Of a DNA stretch of 64,000 nt, positions 37 to 9,485 are shown piece by piece. This stretch comes from Caecibacter massiliensis. GTDB taxonomy: Bacteria; Bacillota; Negativicutes; Veillonellales; Megasphaeraceae. The stretch lies in NCBI GenBank assembly GCA_900095875.1, contig LT608311.1:558001-622000 (forward strand). Reading direction: 5' to 3'. Position 1 is the first letter of the stretch, and each line of letters opens with the position of its first letter. Below the pieces are notes generated by a model. It saw nothing but the letters and a program-made list of their open reading frames with translations, searched no databases and was not told the DNA's origin. The translations under genes were made by a program, and so were the position numbers.

Positions 37-3000
37 CTATACGACAGGATCCGCAAAATATACATATACACCTTTGAGCCGTACGAGGTCGAGACCCATT
101 TCTGTAAAAGCTGCGTGGATTGCCTTTTCAGAAAGTGATACGTTTTTCTTTGCATCACCGGCTTTGACGACGTATTGTGCCCCGTCATCAAGTGGATAAA
201 TCCGCAGGGTTACTCCATCATAATCGAGACGGAACATACCACTGCCATCTTCTGTCTGTATGTTCGTTTTGATGGAACGGCTGTGCAGCTGAGGCTGTAC
301 CGGTTCCGTGAGGCGCATGCCCGTCGGCGAAAGCTTCGTTGTTTCTCCCGCCTGGGAAACACCATAGGTGCCATACTGTTTGACTGTATTGTCCTGAACA
401 CGGAAAATCGGCATAGAAATTTCTATTTTGTGCTGTGGCCGGCCACCCTCACGGTTCCAAACATCCTGATTCGTAATATCCGGTTTGGTCTGAACAATCT
501 GCAATGTCGCATCTCCACCGGAAACGAGATAGTTCTTCAGAAAATCAGGACCGCTGAGGAATGTTCCAAAGGAATATGTACCTGGCCAGTTTGTCCGTGT
601 ATTGCCATTGAGATAGCCATGACCATAGTCACCATAATCATAGCTCAGACCTCCCGGCTGATCCCCGTTGGTCAGGCCCGTAACGCGGGACCGGGTCGTC
701 CGTACTACACCGTACTGGGTGAATACGTCATCCGTATCAATACGGAGGGGGGCTTTATTTACGATGATGTCCCCTTCGATGGTGACGATGTAGTTCTTCC
801 GGGCATCACTGCCATTTTCATGGACGATACCGCCACCATCCGATTCCATGTCATTGTAATACGTCCCGGCATCGGCCGTAGTCCGGCCGGCCCGGTTGGT
901 TTCATACGCTCCACCAGCCTTCGGCGTCATAGTCAGGCCAACCGTAGAAATAGTATCCCCGTTCACCAGATTGGGATTGGACGATTCCGTAAAGGTTGTC
1001 TTATCCGAGCCATAAGTCTGAATCATGTCGTTGGTAACTTTGATGGCTACCGGTGTCAGAGTAACCGTACCGGCCTTATCCAGCACCACTTCGTAGTTGT
1101 CCAGGGACTTATTGAAGTCCGTCGTAATGCCATAGCTGTCCAGGCTGCCATCCGTCTTGTACTTTACATCGTTGGTCCGGTCCTTACTTACGAGAGCACC
1201 AGATGTGTTGGTGATACCGATTTTAGACGTCAATTCAACCAGGCTGTCCCCGTTTTTTTCGCCCTTGACCGTAGTAGCACTATCCAGATCCTTCTGAACT
1301 GCCCCTGCATCCCCATAGGCTTCCGTATAGTTGCCAGTGGACAGATGCAGTGTGGCTTTGTTGATGGTGGCATTGCCGTTTTCGATCTCGATGTTGTAGT
1401 TGTCCAGTGTCTGGTTGGTAGACCCTTCCAGGTAGTATGGCCCGCCGTTCACCGTCTTGGTCACCTTGCCGGCCTGTTTTTCCTCTGCGGAAGCATCGCC
1501 CGTATTGGTATAGGTGATATTGCCCGTGCCGTACGTCCCATCGAGGGCACTCGTCACCACGCCTGAGCCGTCCCCGTTGGTCAGGCCTTCGATACTGCTG
1601 GTATCATAACCATACTTGCTGGTATCAAAAGCTGTACCATAGGTGGTGGAAACATCGTTGAGCTTCACCTTCACAGTAGCTTTGTTTACCGTGGCCGTAC
1701 CGGCCAAATCAGAGTTTTCCTTATCGATTTCATAGTTCTGAGCCGTATTACCCTTCAGGGTAAACGTCCCTGTCAAATCATAGTCTCCTGCATTCTGGGT
1801 CTTGACAGCGGAATTGTTGGGATCAGACTTTTCTCCGCCATTAGAATAGGAAACTTCAATTTGATTGTTCCTTACGTCTTCCTCTGAATCTCCATTGGCA
1901 TTTCCAGACAGGGTATAGGCATAAGGGGTCCAATCACTTGACCCATAGGTAGTGCTCGTATCCCCCACTTTCAAGGTCAGTTTGGCCTTTTCTACCTTAG
2001 AAGTGCCCGGGTTCACCACTTTGATGTTGTAGTTGTCCAGGGTTTTGGAGGTGTTGCCGGTGATCTGGTAGCTGCCGGCGTTCTGGGTCTTGACATTTTC
2101 GTTATTGGGATCGGATTTTTCCCCGCCATTCACATAAGTAAAATCACTGTCCTGGAGGACATCGGTGATGGCCGCTGCGGCATCCCCGTTGGTCAGCCCC
2201 TGCAGATCCGCCGCGTCCTTTTTGTACCCATAGGTGCTGCTGTCAAACTCTTTCCCGTAGGTGGTAGAGACGTCTTTCAGGGTCAGGGTCAGATTCGCTT
2301 TATCCACGGTGGAATCGGCCCCGTCAATGATCACCTTATAATTCTGCAGTGTCTTCTCCGTAGTCCCGGTCAGTTTGTATCCTGTGCCTGCGTTTTGGGT
2401 CTTTACATTCTCATTGTCCGGATCCGTAGCGTCCCCGGTGTTGGTGTAGGTAATATCCCCGTTGCCAATGGCTTTCGTCACTACATCCGTGCTGTCCCCG
2501 TTGGCCATCGCCAGCTTGCTGGCATCATAGCCGTACTTGCTGGTATCGAAGGCCGTACCGTAAGTGGTGGATACGTCGTTGAGCTTCAGATGGATTTCTG
2601 CCGGAGTGACTTCAGCCTTGCCGGCCTTCACGGTGCCGATTACGTAGTTCTGCGCCGTATCCCCGCTGAGCGTGAAGGTTCCCATCAGATCGTAGCTGCC
2701 CACATCCTGGGTCTTTACCTTGTCATTGGACGCATCGGATTTCTCCCCGCCATTGGTGTAGGTAACGGAAATCTTGTTGTTTTCTACATTTGCTACGGTA
2801 TCCCCGTTGGCATTGCCTTCCAGGGTATAGCTGTACGTATTGGGATCAAAAGCAGTTCCGTAGGTGGTTTCCGTATTTCCCACCGTCAAGGTCAGTTTGG
2901 CCTTTTCCACCGTAGATTTCCCGTTGGTGATATGGACGTTATAGTCAGAGAGTTCCTTGCTGGCAGCCCCCTGGAGTTCATAAGTCCCGGCATTCTGAGT

Positions 3001-6000
3001 CTTCACCTTGTCGTTGCTGGCATCCGTTTTCGCCCCGGTATTGGTGTAGTTGAGGAATTGATCTCCCAATACAGACTGGGTATCCCCGTTCACCAGCCCA
3101 CCTTTGGCGTCATCCACCGTATAGCCATACTGGGTATCATCAAAGGCCGTCCCATAGGTGGTGGACACATCCCCCACCGTCAGGTAGAGATCCGCCGGGT
3201 TCACCGTGATGGTGCCACTGCCGGTGACCTCATAGTTGGCAGAAGCATCGCTGCCATCGCTAGCCTTTACCTCTGCACTGGAAGTCAGATATTGGTCTTC
3301 ATATTTGCCTACATGGGCCGTATCGTTGCTACCCTTGCTGTCAGCATAAGTACCATCAGTAGAAATGGTATACTTGATATCACTATCAGTCAGAGTATCT
3401 CCGTTTACCAGCTGGGTTTTGTCGTAAGAAGGCGTCCCGCTCTTCACCGTGGAGTTGCCATAAGTCTGGGTACCATCGGTGTTGATGGTCAGTGTCTTCC
3501 GAGTGATTTCCACTTCCCCATCATTGGCCGCCTTGTCATACCCGTTCAGGGTCTTGACCCCATCCTGATAGGCCACATCCATCACGTAGAAGGCTTTGTT
3601 CCCATCGCTGGCCGTCTTATACGTTTTATTGCCATCTGCATCTGTCACCATTTCATTTCCGCTGGTCCGGGTGGCTGTTTGCACAGCGCCGTCACTGGAT
3701 GCGCTGACCGTAGCCAGGCCCGTCTTCGTTCCGTCCGAACTGGTCACGTAGGTCAGATAATCGGCTTCATTGAAATTGCTGAACTGGGTCACATCGACAT
3801 CCTTGCCGGTGGAATCCGTATAGGTGGCCGAGGTGATCAGCAGATTCCGCAGTTGGTCATCGGTAAGGGTATCCCCGTAGGTTTTCTTCTGGCTGCCGCC
3901 GGAAATGGTAATCACCGGGGTTACCTGGAAGATGAACTTGTTGCTGCTGGTATCGGTATAGTCCGTCAGCGTTTTATTAGAACTGTTGGTAGTCACCGTG
4001 CTGTTAGCATCGGATTTGGCCGTCCACTGGGCATTGGTGCTGCTGTTCAGATTGCTGCCCAGGCTGGTGCCATAGTCGCTGGGGGAATTCACATAGACCT
4101 GCCAGGTGCCTCCGGTGCCGGTGGTGATGGCAGAAGTACCGGTGGTGCTGTTCACCAGAGAGCCCTGGCTGCCCTGGGCATCGACCACCACAGCGCCTTT
4201 TGCCGTGCTGGCCGCAGCCAGGGTGCCCTCTGTGGCATTGCCATTGTAATCCACGCCGGCGCCCAGGGTGATCTTACCGGTCTTCCCGGTGGAAGTCAGA
4301 CTGATCTTGCCGCCGTTCAGGGTGCTGTCACTATCTGTATAGCCGTCGGATTCCACGCCGTGGACGGTAAGGTCACCGGCTGATTTGATGGTTACACTGT
4401 CCAGCTGGAAGGCGGTGTTCTGGTATCCATCGCTACGGGTGGTGATGTCACTGGCAGAAGCGGTGGTATCCGTGGTGCCGGAATGGATTTCCCCGCCTAC
4501 CGATACGGTACCCCCGGAAATGTAGACCCCATGGTCCGCATAAACAGTGCCGTATTTATAGTTTGTGGCTTTATTGTTTTCATTCCCGATGGTCACGGCC
4601 CCGGTGCTTTCAATGTTCACCGTATCCAGAGCCTTGCCTTTCCCGATATCCCCTTCCAGGCTGACAGCGCCGCTGCCGGCTTTGATGTTCAGGCTGGAAT
4701 TGGCCAGGTTGGTCTCCTTGATAAAGCCCACGGTGGTATCCCCGCCCATGGCCGCATCGTCCCATTTGCCGGTGGTGCCAAACCCTACGGTCAGGAACGG
4801 TGCACTGTTGTCCGGCTGGGAACGGGTCTTGTTCCCGTCTTTATAGGTATCCCAGTTCACATACCCATAAACGGCTTTCCCATAATTCCCGCTCTGCCAG
4901 TTAGAACCAGCATTGCTGTAGAATTGGGTCCCCTTGCCATTATTGGCTTCCCCTTCCGGGCCGGTGACCCAGTACATGCCGTCCTGATAGGTAGGATCGT
5001 CGGGCATGCCGTAAAAGGAATAAGGATAGAGCTTGTCGTTGGTGCTGCTGTTGGAACCTTTTTTGTTCAGTACGCCGGAACCCCGGCCACCGGCCCAGAG
5101 GATCTGCTGGCCGTTAGGCGTGGTCAGGGAGTTTTCCAGGATGGTGGTAATGGTGGCCAGGTAGGAATCCCCTGCAGCCGAACCGCCTTTGGTATTTCCC
5201 TGGGCCAGTTCCTTGGATGCAAACCAGTTGGTAGCCAGGAGATGGCTGATGTCGTCCTTGATATTGGCGTAAAGAGTCTGTCCGTTCAACGTGGTATCGG
5301 TGCTGGCCGTACCATTCGTGAAGCTTTCAACAGCCGCAGTCAGATAGGTTTTTAAATCGGCTGTGGTCATGGTTTTTCCGGCCGAATTTTGTACAGAAGT
5401 AGTAGTCTTACCGCCACTTGTAGCAGTTACCACCTTAACCCCACTGCTCTGGCTGATATATCGATTGGCAAAGTTAGCTGCGTTATAGGTGAGCTGGTAG
5501 TTCAGCCATTGTTCCAAGGTCATTTCGCCTTTGGTGATGACGACGGAAGCATATCCCGTCCCCGCACTTGTGCTGACGCTGGTGGAGCTCCCGTCTCCCA
5601 GCCAGCGGACATTCTGGGTATCGGCTTCAGAGAAGGTGTAATGGGGCTGTCCATTGCTAAAGCTCTGGGCGTCTGTGGTGTATTGATAAGTCCCGTCTGC
5701 ATTCTTCACATAGTTGCCGCTGGTGTCTTTCACATAGTTAACACCCTGGTAATGATAGGCCGGGACCGTACCTTTTTCCAGGTATTTTTCCACCGTCTGT
5801 TCCACCAGGGTATTCCAAGTGTCCGTCCCGTATACATAGGCCCCATAGCTGTTCCCGGAGTTGATGATCCCGGTGGCCGTCACATCTCCGCCCCCGGAAT
5901 CCAGGGTCAGAGTTCCCCCGTTGAGGCCGATGGCGATTTCCCCGTTAAGGGTGATCTTCCCGCCGCTGGTCTTGATCATCCGGTCATCCTTTGCCCCATC

Positions 6001-7698
6001 CGCTGTACCGCTGCTGTCCACATGGCCAAAATAGGTACCGACCGTATGGCCCGCAGGATCTGCCTTGCCGCTAAGGGTCCCTTTGCCATACCCTTTGGTA
6101 TTGGCCTTATCACTGGTATATGTCACCGTACCGCCGGAAGCGGAGGTGAAATTTCCCCCATTGGTATTGATATTGGCATTGATGATTACGGCACCGATCT
6201 GGTCCCCGTTGCTGTCCGCATTCAATACCACATTCAGTTTATTGGACGTAGAAGAGATATTGCCATTGACGGTGATATTCCGCATGGCATCCAGGGTAAA
6301 GGTGGCATCATCCCCTGCGGTCTTATCGATGTCATTTTTGACGATGATATTGGCCGATCCGTTAGTGGCCGCTGCCTGGATGGTCACATTCGTACCCGCA
6401 TTCAGCATTTTTTCCACCATATCAGTGGAAATCCAGGTTACAGCACTGTTTACGGAAGAAGCATTGGCAGTGGTGGCATCGGGGTCGTTGTAGCCGATGG
6501 AAGCACTGCCCTTGGTGAAATCAGAATCCGCGGCGGTTTTCTTTTCCGCATTGTCATAATTACTTGTCGTTGTGGGATCACTGTCGGCGATGATTACGTC
6601 CAGCGGATCCAGCAGCCATTCCCCTGCCTTGCCGCTGACGCCTTTTGCATCGATTGTGAGATTATCCCCCAGGTTCAGCACGTCGCCGGAGGTTTCGATT
6701 TTGCCGCCGTCCACATCACCGCGGGCGAGGAGGTTTGTCCCGTCATGGACGATGGTCTTTTCACCGATGACTTTGATATTTCCTGCGTCCTGGCCTTTTT
6801 CCGTACCGGAAGCGTCCAAGGTTCCACTAACATCGACCTGTCCATGATCTCCGCCGTCGAGAATGATCTGGCCTTTTTCATTTTTACGCAGCGTCTTAGC
6901 TTCAATGGTGCCGCTGTTGTTGACGACCGTGCTCAGGACATCGCCGGCACTTTTAGCCGTCATGACGACGTATCCGCCATCGGCTTTGAGCGTACCGCTG
7001 TTGAGAGATTGTGCCCGTGCCAGCGTACCATCGACAGTGAAATTCAGTTTGCCATCAGCATCACTGGACAGATTCAGATTCTTTGCTGCCGTAAGAGCTA
7101 CCATACCGCCGTCATTAGCAATGGTACCACTGTTTTCTACGTTTGACGCATGAAGAGCGACCAGACCGCCCTGGGCCTTGATGATTCCTTCATTGATAAC
7201 AGCCGCATTGTTTTCATTATCGACAGCGAGATTCAGGGAATCCTGGCTGCTGCCAAAGCGATTCATCGTGTCATCAGCGAGACGGGCCGTCGAAGCGACG
7301 AGTCCTCCTACATCAACACTGGCATTTTTACCAAATACGACACCATTTGGGTTGACCAGAAAAACATGTCCATTGGCATTCAGGTTCCCTTCGATCAGGG
7401 ACTGCTGGCCACCGGTAACCCGGTTCAGTGATACGGCATTCTTATCAGGCTGTGCATAACGAACTGTTTCATTTTTAGCTATATCAAACTGCGTCCAGTC
7501 AATAGCCATGCGGTTGCTATTCTGTTGAACCGTCATCGTTTGTCCTTGTTCTACAATGGACCCATTGCCGGACCGGATGGTTCCGCCCGAAGGCATAGCC
7601 TGTACAGAGCCACCCAGCGCCATGGCCAGGAGGACCATGCCAGTCAGCCGATGTTTCCATTGGTTTCTATTTCTATATCTCATATATATCCGCTTCAT
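37..7698 (-). CDS. Giant filamentous-haemagglutinin-like secreted adhesin (TpsA type)
   Basis: Predicted exoprotein of a two-partner secretion system, 2553 aa. A cleavable signal peptide (basic start, hydrophobic stretch, VQA cut around residue 34) is followed by the TPS/haemagglutination-activity domain (about residues 35-180) with the family motif NPNGVVFG. A Gly/Asn/Thr-rich beta-helix region follows. It is interrupted at about residues 820-985 by a segment that looks like a C-type-lectin-like domain: LATIT near its start, then WAGG, and QPDNS plus KWDD near its end. From about residue 1260 there are 11 MBG-type repeats of roughly 85 aa, most with the core TTYGTAFD and linkers such as VKTQNAG. 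The C-terminus (about 180 aa) is not a beta-barrel, so export must use the TpsB encoded 23 bp upstream. Substrate or host receptor is unknown; adhesion is inferred from the family. The opposite strand carries long open frames that I regard as shadows. Confidence 0.9.
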   Translation of the reverse strand: MKRIYMRYRNRNQWKHRLTGMVLLAMALGGSVQAMPSGGTIRSGNGSIVEQGQTMTVQQNSNRMAIDWTQFDIAKNETVRYAQPDKNAVSLNRVTGGQQSLIEGNLNANGHVFLVNPNGVVFGKNASVDVGGLVASTARLADDTMNRFGSSQDSLNLAVDNENNAAVINEGIIKAQGGLVALHASNVENSGTIANDGGMVALTAAKNLNLSSDADGKLNFTVDGTLARAQSLNSGTLKADGGYVVMTAKSAGDVLSTVVNNSGTIEAKTLRKNEKGQIILDGGDHGQVDVSGTLDASGTEKGQDAGNIKVIGEKTIVHDGTNLLARGDVDGGKIETSGDVLNLGDNLTIDAKGVSGKAGEWLLDPLDVIIADSDPTTTSNYDNAEKKTAADSDFTKGSASIGYNDPDATTANASSVNSAVTWISTDMVEKMLNAGTNVTIQAAATNGSANIIVKNDIDKTAGDDATFTLDAMRNITVNGNISSTSNKLNVVLNADSNGDQIGAVIINANINTNGGNFTSASGGTVTYTSDKANTKGYGKGTLSGKADPAGHTVGTYFGHVDSSGTADGAKDDRMIKTSGGKITLNGEIAIGLNGGTLTLDSGGGDVTATGIINSGNSYGAYVYGTDTWNTLVEQTVEKYLEKGTVPAYHYQGVNYVKDTSGNYVKNADGTYQYTTDAQSFSNGQPHYTFSEADTQNVRWLGDGSSTSVSTSAGTGYASVVITKGEMTLEQWLNYQLTYNAANFANRYISQSSGVKVVTATSGGKTTTSVQNSAGKTMTTADLKTYLTAAVESFTNGTASTDTTLNGQTLYANIKDDISHLLATNWFASKELAQGNTKGGSAAGDSYLATITTILENSLTTPNGQQILWAGGRGSGVLNKKGSNSSTNDKLYPYSFYGMPDDPTYQDGMYWVTGPEGEANNGKGTQFYSNAGSNWQSGNYGKAVYGYVNWDTYKDGNKTRSQPDNSAPFLTVGFGTTGKWDDAAMGGDTTVGFIKETNLANSSLNIKAGSGAVSLEGDIGKGKALDTVNIESTGAVTIGNENNKATNYKYGTVYADHGVYISGGTVSVGGEIHSGTTDTTASASDITTRSDGYQNTAFQLDSVTIKSAGDLTVHGVESDGYTDSDSTLNGGKISLTSTGKTGKITLGAGVDYNGNATEGTLAAASTAKGAVVVDAQGSQGSLVNSTTGTSAITTGTGGTWQVYVNSPSDYGTSLGSNLNSSTNAQWTAKSDANSTVTTNSSNKTLTDYTDTSSNKFIFQVTPVITISGGSQKKTYGDTLTDDQLRNLLITSATYTDSTGKDVDVTQFSNFNEADYLTYVTSSDGTKTGLATVSASSDGAVQTATRTSGNEMVTDADGNKTYKTASDGNKAFYVMDVAYQDGVKTLNGYDKAANDGEVEITRKTLTINTDGTQTYGNSTVKSGTPSYDKTQLVNGDTLTDSDIKYTISTDGTYADSKGSNDTAHVGKYEDQYLTSSAEVKASDGSDASANYEVTGSGTITVNPADLYLTVGDVSTTYGTAFDDTQYGYTVDDAKGGLVNGDTQSVLGDQFLNYTNTGAKTDASNDKVKTQNAGTYELQGAASKELSDYNVHITNGKSTVEKAKLTLTVGNTETTYGTAFDPNTYSYTLEGNANGDTVANVENNKISVTYTNGGEKSDASNDKVKTQDVGSYDLMGTFTLSGDTAQNYVIGTVKAGKAEVTPAEIHLKLNDVSTTYGTAFDTSKYGYDASKLAMANGDSTDVVTKAIGNGDITYTNTGDATDPDNENVKTQNAGTGYKLTGTTEKTLQNYKVIIDGADSTVDKANLTLTLKDVSTTYGKEFDSSTYGYKKDAADLQGLTNGDAAAAITDVLQDSDFTYVNGGEKSDPNNENVKTQNAGSYQITGNTSKTLDNYNIKVVNPGTSKVEKAKLTLKVGDTSTTYGSSDWTPYAYTLSGNANGDSEEDVRNNQIEVSYSNGGEKSDPNNSAVKTQNAGDYDLTGTFTLKGNTAQNYEIDKENSDLAGTATVNKATVKVKLNDVSTTYGTAFDTSKYGYDTSSIEGLTNGDGSGVVTSALDGTYGTGNITYTNTGDASAEEKQAGKVTKTVNGGPYYLEGSTNQTLDNYNIEIENGNATINKATLHLSTGNYTEAYGDAGAVQKDLDSATTVKGEKNGDSLVELTSKIGITNTSGALVSKDRTNDVKYKTDGSLDSYGITTDFNKSLDNYEVVLDKAGTVTLTPVAIKVTNDMIQTYGSDKTTFTESSNPNLVNGDTISTVGLTMTPKAGGAYETNRAGRTTADAGTYYNDMESDGGGIVHENGSDARKNYIVTIEGDIIVNKAPLRIDTDDVFTQYGVVRTTRSRVTGLTNGDQPGGLSYDYGDYGHGYLNGNTRTNWPGTYSFGTFLSGPDFLKNYLVSGGDATLQIVQTKPDITNQDVWNREGGRPQHKIEISMPIFRVQDNTVKQYGTYGVSQAGETTKLSPTGMRLTEPVQPQLHSRSIKTNIQTEDGSGMFRLDYDGVTLRIYPLDDGAQYVVKAGDAKKNVSLSEKAIHAAFTEMGLDLVRLKGVYVYFADPVV

Positions 7699-7721
7699 TC
7701 CTTTCTTATATATACATATTC

Positions 7722-9485
7722 TTAGAAATATACGCCTGTGCGGAGCCAGAATTGTCCATTGCTATGGCGTGTATCACTGAACGGTTCTTCGGAACCCAGT
7801 TTCCATGCATAATCAGCCCGGACAAACCAGTCTTCATGACGGGACCAGATAAGCCCCAGACCGATGCCCTGCAGATTGCGGTGGTTTTTGGCACCAGGAT
7901 TCAGACTGCTGTCCTTATTGATCCAGATGCCGCCGTGTTCCAGATAAGCGGCCAGCTGCAGCTGCTGGTCATTCTTCTTGATAGGCAGCTGCCAACGCAG
8001 TTCAGCCCGTGTCAGATATCCCGTATCGCCGGAGGCTTCACTGGTCGGATAAGCCCGTACGCCGTACGGCCCGCCGAGATAGAAATGTTCGGACGAATCC
8101 AGGTTGGAAAAAGCATACTGGCCCCGTGCTGTCAGGAGCAGATACAGGCGGCTGTTGATATTCTGATGTCGTTCGATATACCCCCGCATTTTTTCATATG
8201 TTCCCGTCGTCCGGGGGCTGTTGGCCAGAAGCGGAACAAAAGGATTGGATGAATTATACAGTGCATCGTTGGTGATGTGCCCCCATTTATAATCAACACG
8301 CCAGTTCGTGAACCCTTCATTATCCTGGCTGTCCCCGTACAGGGAGAACACGGCTGCGTTCCCCGTCTTATCTCCATAGGTTGCATCCCACAGGCGGTAT
8401 TCATCTTTCATACGGCTGTGTTCGTATCCGATGCCGGCATAAAAATTGTGCAGCCGGCTGCGCTGGATGGCATAATCAAATCCGATGGAAGCCACGCGGG
8501 ACTGGCCTACCCCGTCGAGATAGGAAAATTCATCTCCCAGATCATAACTCATGACGTTGTAACCGACAGTCATGCGCAGGCCATCGGTCAGGACAGGAAT
8601 CGTATAATTGGCACCCCAGTCGAACATCTTGCGGCCGGAAGTAGCGATGCCCGTGTTCAGATGATCCCCTTCGTGGGCCAGATTGGTAAAATCATAATTG
8701 ACACCATACTGGTTATACCCCATGGAGCGGCTGCCATAGTTATCAGCCGTTGCCAGACCGTGTTTTGTCTTGTATGGATCGACATCGAGCAGGACATGAA
8801 CCGTTCCCGGTTCACTGCCCTGGCTGAGCGTTACCTTGGCGTCTGCATCAGCCAGATCCGACAGGAGCCAGACGGCCCGTTCCAGTTCGGCCCGGGTAAC
8901 GTAATCACCCTTTTTCAGGAACCCAATCTGCCGCTGTATGGCTGCGTCGTTGATTTTCGTATGATTTTCAACAGTTACCCCGTCAAGCCGTCCCACTTGC
9001 ACGACATAGGTCACAGTCCCCTGGTCTATCTGCTGTTGCGGCAGATAAGCCCGTGCGACAAGATAGCCATGGTCACGAAAATATTTCGTGAGTACATCAG
9101 CCCCGCCCTGCAGCTGGGCAAAAGTGAGGTCTTTTCCCTTATTGTCCGCCAGCAGTGCCTGCAGCGTCTGTTCGGGATAGATATCCTGCCCGGTAATCTT
9201 GAATTCCCGGACGGGAAGGGTGACCTCTTTTCCCTCAATAGCCGATGATGTTCCCTGTTCAGGCGTCTGTACCTTGATATTTTTCGATGCTTCAGGAATG
9301 GTCAGTGCGCGCTGCCGGTCCCGCCATTCATTCTGCAGCATACCTGCATCAGCTTTGCGTGGCGTATCCCGCAGTCCTTCCGGCAGACCAGCCGGGATGG
9401 CCGCTTGTATACAGACAGCTTGAGCAGCTCCCAAAACAGCAGCTGCTATGATGATTCTAATTTTTCTGTTGTGACTCCTTCTCAC
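7722..9485 (-). CDS. TpsB outer-membrane transporter, ShlB/FhaC/HecB family
   Basis: 587 aa outer-membrane partner that secretes the TpsA protein encoded immediately downstream. A signal peptide occupies about residues 1-28. A ShlB-type POTRA domain follows (about residues 75-165, containing the KITGQDIYPE and DHGYLVARAYLP stretches), then a second POTRA-like segment and a 16-strand-type barrel ending in a terminal Phe (RTGVYF), the usual outer-membrane insertion signal. The start is GTG at 9485, preceded by an AGGGGGA ribosome-binding site; no ATG lies near it. The stop is 23 bp before the adhesin ATG, so the two are almost certainly one transcript, in the classic B-then-A order. The upstream 500 bp are very AT-rich. 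Confidence 0.93.
   Translation of the reverse strand: MRRSHNRKIRIIIAAAVLGAAQAVCIQAAIPAGLPEGLRDTPRKADAGMLQNEWRDRQRALTIPEASKNIKVQTPEQGTSSAIEGKEVTLPVREFKITGQDIYPEQTLQALLADNKGKDLTFAQLQGGADVLTKYFRDHGYLVARAYLPQQQIDQGTVTYVVQVGRLDGVTVENHTKINDAAIQRQIGFLKKGDYVTRAELERAVWLLSDLADADAKVTLSQGSEPGTVHVLLDVDPYKTKHGLATADNYGSRSMGYNQYGVNYDFTNLAHEGDHLNTGIATSGRKMFDWGANYTIPVLTDGLRMTVGYNVMSYDLGDEFSYLDGVGQSRVASIGFDYAIQRSRLHNFYAGIGYEHSRMKDEYRLWDATYGDKTGNAAVFSLYGDSQDNEGFTNWRVDYKWGHITNDALYNSSNPFVPLLANSPRTTGTYEKMRGYIERHQNINSRLYLLLTARGQYAFSNLDSSEHFYLGGPYGVRAYPTSEASGDTGYLTRAELRWQLPIKKNDQQLQLAAYLEHGGIWINKDSSLNPGAKNHRNLQGIGLGLIWSRHEDWFVRADYAWKLGSEEPFSDTRHSNGQFWLRTGVYF

Follow-up and report, generated by a model that had tools for sequence, protein, structure and literature searches.

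Background

As intimin and invasin illustrate, sugar binding is not a necessary property of a bacterial C-type-lectin-like domain (CTLD). Both are inverse autotransporters (type Ve) ending in a lectin-like domain (PMC7718877, PMC5422565), and the TpsA protein presented here resembles them as a type V-pathway surface adhesin bearing such a domain, although they differ from it in their secretion route, their Ig-like stalk and the position of the domain at the tip. Among the two-partner-secretion proteins, EtpA of enterotoxigenic E. coli is described in PMC11463764 as a lectin for GalNAc / blood group A, with binding requiring C-terminal beta-helical repeat modules; the same paper reports functional extra-helical elements on the TPS beta-helix of HxuA and other TpsA proteins, and does not contain the term "C-type". 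Whereas the EtpA site is in beta-helical repeats and the elements of the HxuA type are short loops or motifs, the candidate site in our TpsA is a discrete and complete CTLD. No CTLD in a TpsA protein was found in searches of an open-access library, nor in a two-partner-secretion review and a fibrillar adhesin survey, which we take as weak evidence of novelty.

The Negativicutes, diderm Firmicutes which live in gut, rumen and mouth, have to our knowledge hardly any characterised adhesins, and we are also not aware of more than a poor mapping of those regions of two-partner-secretion adhesins that bind ligands. With a discrete CTLD that can be expressed on its own, the question of the ligand of a giant protein would be reduced to a single-domain glycan-array experiment, and with a CTLD in TpsA, type Vb secretion would join the routes by which bacteria display C-type-lectin folds.

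Results and discussion

The tpsB-tpsA locus and the landmarks of the CTLD

The locus lies in the window, by which we mean the complete 64,000-nucleotide stretch of DNA analysed, with tpsB adjoining and preceding tpsA on the minus strand (Table 1). The TPS domain of TpsA was recognised by both Pfam (PF05860, E 2e-35) and NCBIfam (TIGR01901, E 2.4e-24), and is preceded by a hydrophobic N-terminal segment which is a putative signal peptide, and the TpsB protein matches ShlB (PF03865, E 1e-19) and POTRA_2 (PF08479, E 1.5e-13). With its N-terminal TPS domain and the neighbouring TpsB gene, TpsA has the make-up of a two-partner-secretion exoprotein. Its C-terminal region is common to most relatives and is also visible in a virus-encoded version, and the whole of TpsA is devoid of cysteine. 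An initial description of the sequence surrounding the CTLD as beta-helix-like is not quite right, as the TPS domain is the sole recognised domain of TpsA. The C-terminal half (window about 600-3800, minus strand) consists of diverged 'TTYG..FD...NGD' repeats, which were matched by no Pfam model.

Table 1. Features of the tpsB-tpsA locus and of the related viral protein (window coordinates unless a contig is named)
Feature	TpsA residues	Position	Strand	Basis or remark
TpsB outer-membrane transporter, POTRA and ShlB/FhaC barrel		7722..9485	-	PF03865, PF08479
TpsA, 2553 aa, filamentous-haemagglutinin-type two-partner-secretion exoprotein with CTLD		37..7698	-	ORF
TPS secretion domain	34-293	6820..7599	-	PF05860
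CTLD	824-997	4708..5229	-	landmarks, A1 alignment, hhalign
NWFASKELAQ...SYLATIT segment		5146..5229	-	conserved columns in A1
NWFAS	824-828	5215-5229	-	helix-1 W..A...A landmark, in NWFASKELAQ
SYLATIT	845-851	5146-5166	-	LATIT..EN landmark
ILWAGG	866-871	5086..5103	-	WIGG-type core motif; G invariant in A1
Variable insert between WAGG and YWVTGPEG		4975..5085	-	A1 alignment
YWVTGPEG	909-916	4951..4974	-	CTLD W.W..G position; W, G and E invariant in A1
YVNWD	946-950	4849-4863	-	NW landmark
QPDNS (Q961-P962-D963)	961-965	4804..4818	-	EPN/QPD sugar-specificity motif equivalent, with cis-proline
GKWDD (W979-D980-D981)	977-981	4756..4770	-	WND equivalent; W and D invariant in A1
GFIKETN	991-997	4708-4728	-	last strand
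Conserved C-terminal region of TpsA		40..519	-	matches in relatives; viral translation
Viral TPS-CTLD protein, 766 aa		L034 3684-5984

The first-pass annotation of this DNA had proposed a CTLD within the adhesin on the basis of a series of landmarks, and re-reading of the sequence located every one of these on the minus strand, in the order and at the place that had been given. YWVTGPEG and GFIKET are additional to that series, and both strengthen the case for a CTLD; the core landmarks of the fold (WxGG, W.W..G, the cis-proline of EPN/QPD, W(N/D)D and the terminal strand) are thus all present. When compared with Pfam Lectin_C (PF00059), the domain shares the order and spacing of W..A...A, LATIT..EN, WxGG, W.TG, NW, (E/Q)P(N/D) and W(N/D)D, as well as a final strand ending in E, but differs from it by a long insert ahead of the W.TG strand and by loss of the equivalent of E193. 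This insert is missing or short in most relatives, and the homologous region in the alignment begins near TpsA residue 815 (window 5256).

Evidence for homology to C-type-lectin-like domains

Searches with the window domain as a single sequence gave no match in Pfam, NCBIfam or PDB sequences, and a PF00059 search of the window's own genome was also negative, as would be expected from the divergence of the domain. We therefore rely on profiles: A1, an alignment of 19 homologous segments, has 17 invariant columns (W26, A33, D45, Y47, L48, T50, E56, G71, W111, G114, E116, G124, P163, W180, D182, E196 and N198), which largely coincide with the signature columns of CTLDs. As reference we used A2, consisting of 14 Negativicutes domains matching Pfam Lectin_C, a profile of which matches animal CTLD structures (mannose receptor, selectins, mannose-binding protein) with E-values down to 1e-75. 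Comparison of A1 with A2 using hhalign gave a probability of 96.8 and an E-value of 2.1e-10, with a match that is collinear throughout, starting in the first helix and ending in the final strand, and that covers nearly the full template, whereas the best of 60 column-shuffled versions of A1 reached a probability of 2.6 and E 0.018, and reversal of the alignment gave E 0.45. The profile search that had been suggested for this segment hence did retrieve the CTLD family, via the profile of its homologues and with clean shuffled controls.

None of the A1 members reaches the Lectin_C cut-off of 22.6 bits (the best scores 17.5 bits), a cut-off which is a detection threshold and not a biological feature; one relative (L014) has a sub-threshold Lectin_C match with E 0.0069. 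The gap is bridged by a domain from another class of the same phylum (L073), which was found by the A1 profile (E 5.7e-8), passes the Pfam Lectin_C cut-off with 30.8 bits and matches solved CTLDs with a best E of 9.7e-8. When intermediates such as L073 were added, the resulting alignment (A6) matched the Lectin_C profile with E 1.7e-15 in hhalign. Against solved structures the A1 profile found no CTLD, but just chance-level matches to Rad52 and apolipoprotein, whereas nearly all top matches of the A6 profile were CTLDs, though weak ones (best E 0.016). AlphaFold2 models of the segment were discarded, both from the single sequence (pLDDT 37.9) and from the shallow five-row alignment A5 (the window, the two A. 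massiliensis halves and two viral rows; pLDDT 31.5). Short of a structure, we consider the homology of the TpsA segment to CTLDs to be established with very little doubt on the strength of these profile comparisons, and by the same sequence evidence the domain is a genuine, if very diverged, member of the CTLD family. It differs from canonical animal C-type lectin carbohydrate-recognition domains in missing their conserved disulphides; the two conserved cysteines of the A2 domains are missing from the A1 family, in which no cysteine is conserved.

Distribution of the domain in the Negativicutes

Homologues of the segment were found in 24 of the 380 Negativicutes genomes, belonging to 7 genera, in open frames which are about 900-2600 aa long; within the window's own family, the 16 remaining genomes were all without the domain. 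A TpsA protein of 3246 aa from another Negativicutes family (L111) was missed by the A1 profile and reached by the A6 profile; it combines a TPS domain (E 2.8e-44) with a Lectin_C domain (E 5.8e-9), both above the Pfam cut-offs, so this architecture exists independently of the A1 alignment. Like the window protein it has a TPS domain and a CTLD within one exoprotein, but the CTLD of L111 (residues 1417-1534) keeps the full canonical EPN...E...WND set. As judged from the sequences, the same TPS-CTLD architecture recurs across the Negativicutes, in agreement with the original suggestion that a two-partner-secretion adhesin contains a CTLD, a suggestion also borne out by the profile-profile match, the L073 intermediate and the structure matches of A6. 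Two other loci have tandem TpsA-like genes, three in L113 (genome G274) and two in L106 (G254), each with a CTLD of the A1 family, which suggests local duplication and diversification.

Probable horizontal exchange of tpsA segments

When window positions 37-9485 were compared with L002, L003 and L100, the DNA identity was mosaic, ranging from 60 to 97% in 300-base bins. The tpsA gene shares 88-93% DNA identity with A. massiliensis between window positions of about 5285 and 3785, a stretch which includes the CTLD and is interrupted by a single bin of 83%, and up to 97% with Acidaminococcus G025 near window 1685, whereas tpsB and the start of tpsA show just 61-73% identity to Acidaminococcus. 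The enolase of the window has 64% protein identity to that of Acidaminococcus and to that of a genome of the same order. The mosaic identity of tpsA stands in contrast to this, and its best explanation is that segments of tpsA were exchanged horizontally between orders. In a tree of the domain (25 rows) the window groups with Acidaminococcus G025 (91/71 support) and not with its own order. The tpsB-tpsA pair of Acidaminococcus is located between dnaK-dnaJ and prmA-mtaB. In A. massiliensis (NZ_LT608315.1; L003, L002) tpsA is split within the CTLD, in the stretch of the insert between WAGG and YWVTGPEG, and the same IS110-type element is found in the same orientation after the 5' half and before the 3' half, about 97 kb apart, which points either to a rearrangement mediated by the IS or to the assembly having been joined at a repeat.

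Candidate Ca2+ site and proposed role

The ligands of Ca2+ site 2 in mannose-binding protein, which we take to be E185, N187, E193, N205 and D206, correspond in our reading of the alignment to Q961, D963, A966, D980 and D981 of the window protein. An oxygen-containing side chain is thus kept at four of the five canonical positions, and the site is incomplete through loss of the E193 equivalent (A966), with WND replaced by WDD. At the sugar-motif position the 25 rows of the tree have EPN (13), QPD (8), DPN (3) or EPS (1). Repeated switching between EPN and QPD is unsupported, as a single change on the tree (1-2 across bootstraps) accounts for the QPD rows. A carbohydrate ligand is plausible from these residues, and we see an even chance that one is bound via the remnant Ca2+ site (Q961, D963, D980, D981), with QPD hinting at the galactose/GalNAc type if animal CTLDs are taken as a guide.

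While the TPS domain, the TpsB partner, the homology to CTLDs and the recurring architecture can be read directly from the sequences, fold, surface display and ligand binding are what we infer from them. Residues about 815-1000 very probably constitute a diverged, disulphide-free CTLD in a type Vb exoprotein, which would serve as an extra-helical ligand-binding side domain. The TPS domain would lead the TpsA chain out through TpsB, and the exported fibre would carry the CTLD on its side, roughly a third of the way along its length, where it may bind a ligand on another cell, mucin, a food particle or a bacterium. The earlier idea of a CTLD forming the "head" of the adhesin is doubtful, since with such a position in the chain the domain is more likely to be side-mounted.

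Three other readings need to be weighed against this proposal, one being that the resemblance is convergent, with a beta-helix or an unrelated extra-helical domain containing CTLD-like words. The negative single-sequence searches and the uninformative AlphaFold2 models from a shallow alignment (pLDDT 31-38) would fit such a reading, but against it stand the full-length collinear profile match, the intermediates above the Pfam cut-off (L073 and L111) and the coincidence of the invariant A1 columns with CTLD signature columns; chance or convergent similarity was rejected on the shuffling and reversal controls, and we regard this reading as highly improbable. A CTLD without a binding function, either decayed or acting as a structural spacer, is also improbable, if less so: the partly degraded Ca2+ site and the A. 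massiliensis gene broken within the CTLD by an IS110-type element would be in line with it, whereas in most of the 24 genomes the domain is conserved, complete and in an open frame, is found as well in tandem paralogues and in the viral version, and lies in a central region which was exchanged at high DNA identity while TpsB diverged.

The nature of the ligand is a much closer question, as the domain could be a CTLD by descent and fold and yet bind a protein without Ca2+, as intimin and invasin do, a reading to which we give somewhat less than an even chance. It draws on the loss of one of the five site-2 ligands together with substitution of two others, on the lack of conserved cysteines in the family, and on intimin and invasin forming the known group of CTLD-tipped type V adhesins, with the D3 lectin subdomain of intimin binding the protein Tir (PMC7718877). 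Against this, all 19 A1 sequences have the proline of EPN/QPD and the W.D motif, and almost all of the 25 rows retain EPN, QPD or DPN, a conservation more readily accounted for by a site that is in use; L111 with the same architecture also retains EPN, E and WND.

Virus-encoded versions

A protein of 766 aa containing both a TPS domain (E 1.9e-25) and a CTLD of the EPN type (E about 1e-40 with the A1 profile) was found on three IMG/VR viral contigs of 92, 148 and 90 kb (L034/L096, L035/L097 and L036/L098, respectively). Its translation has a C-terminal tail similar to that of TpsA, its gene is directly behind genes with tail-fibre PHROG matches, and no tpsB was seen within about 10 kb. This raises the question of phages carrying host adhesion modules. 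Returning to the side-domain proposal, it is a tentative and rather unlikely extension that the Negativicutes have a disulphide-free, TPS-dedicated CTLD family which serves as a side module for glycan binding and can be exchanged, its EPN and QPD versions differing in sugar specificity, with horizontal swapping between orders and capture by phages for the use of the host or their own.

Another IMG/VR contig (L033, 3300021255_005138) encodes the window domain at 100% identity; this is probably not a gene of a virus but DNA of a bacterium or from the flank of a provirus. The viral CTLD is closest to those of Selenomonadaceae-like relatives (family f24), a family in which genus g65 (L037-L066) shows an expansion of CTLDs and is rich in Lectin_C proteins, with up to five per genome and E-values down to 4e-19.
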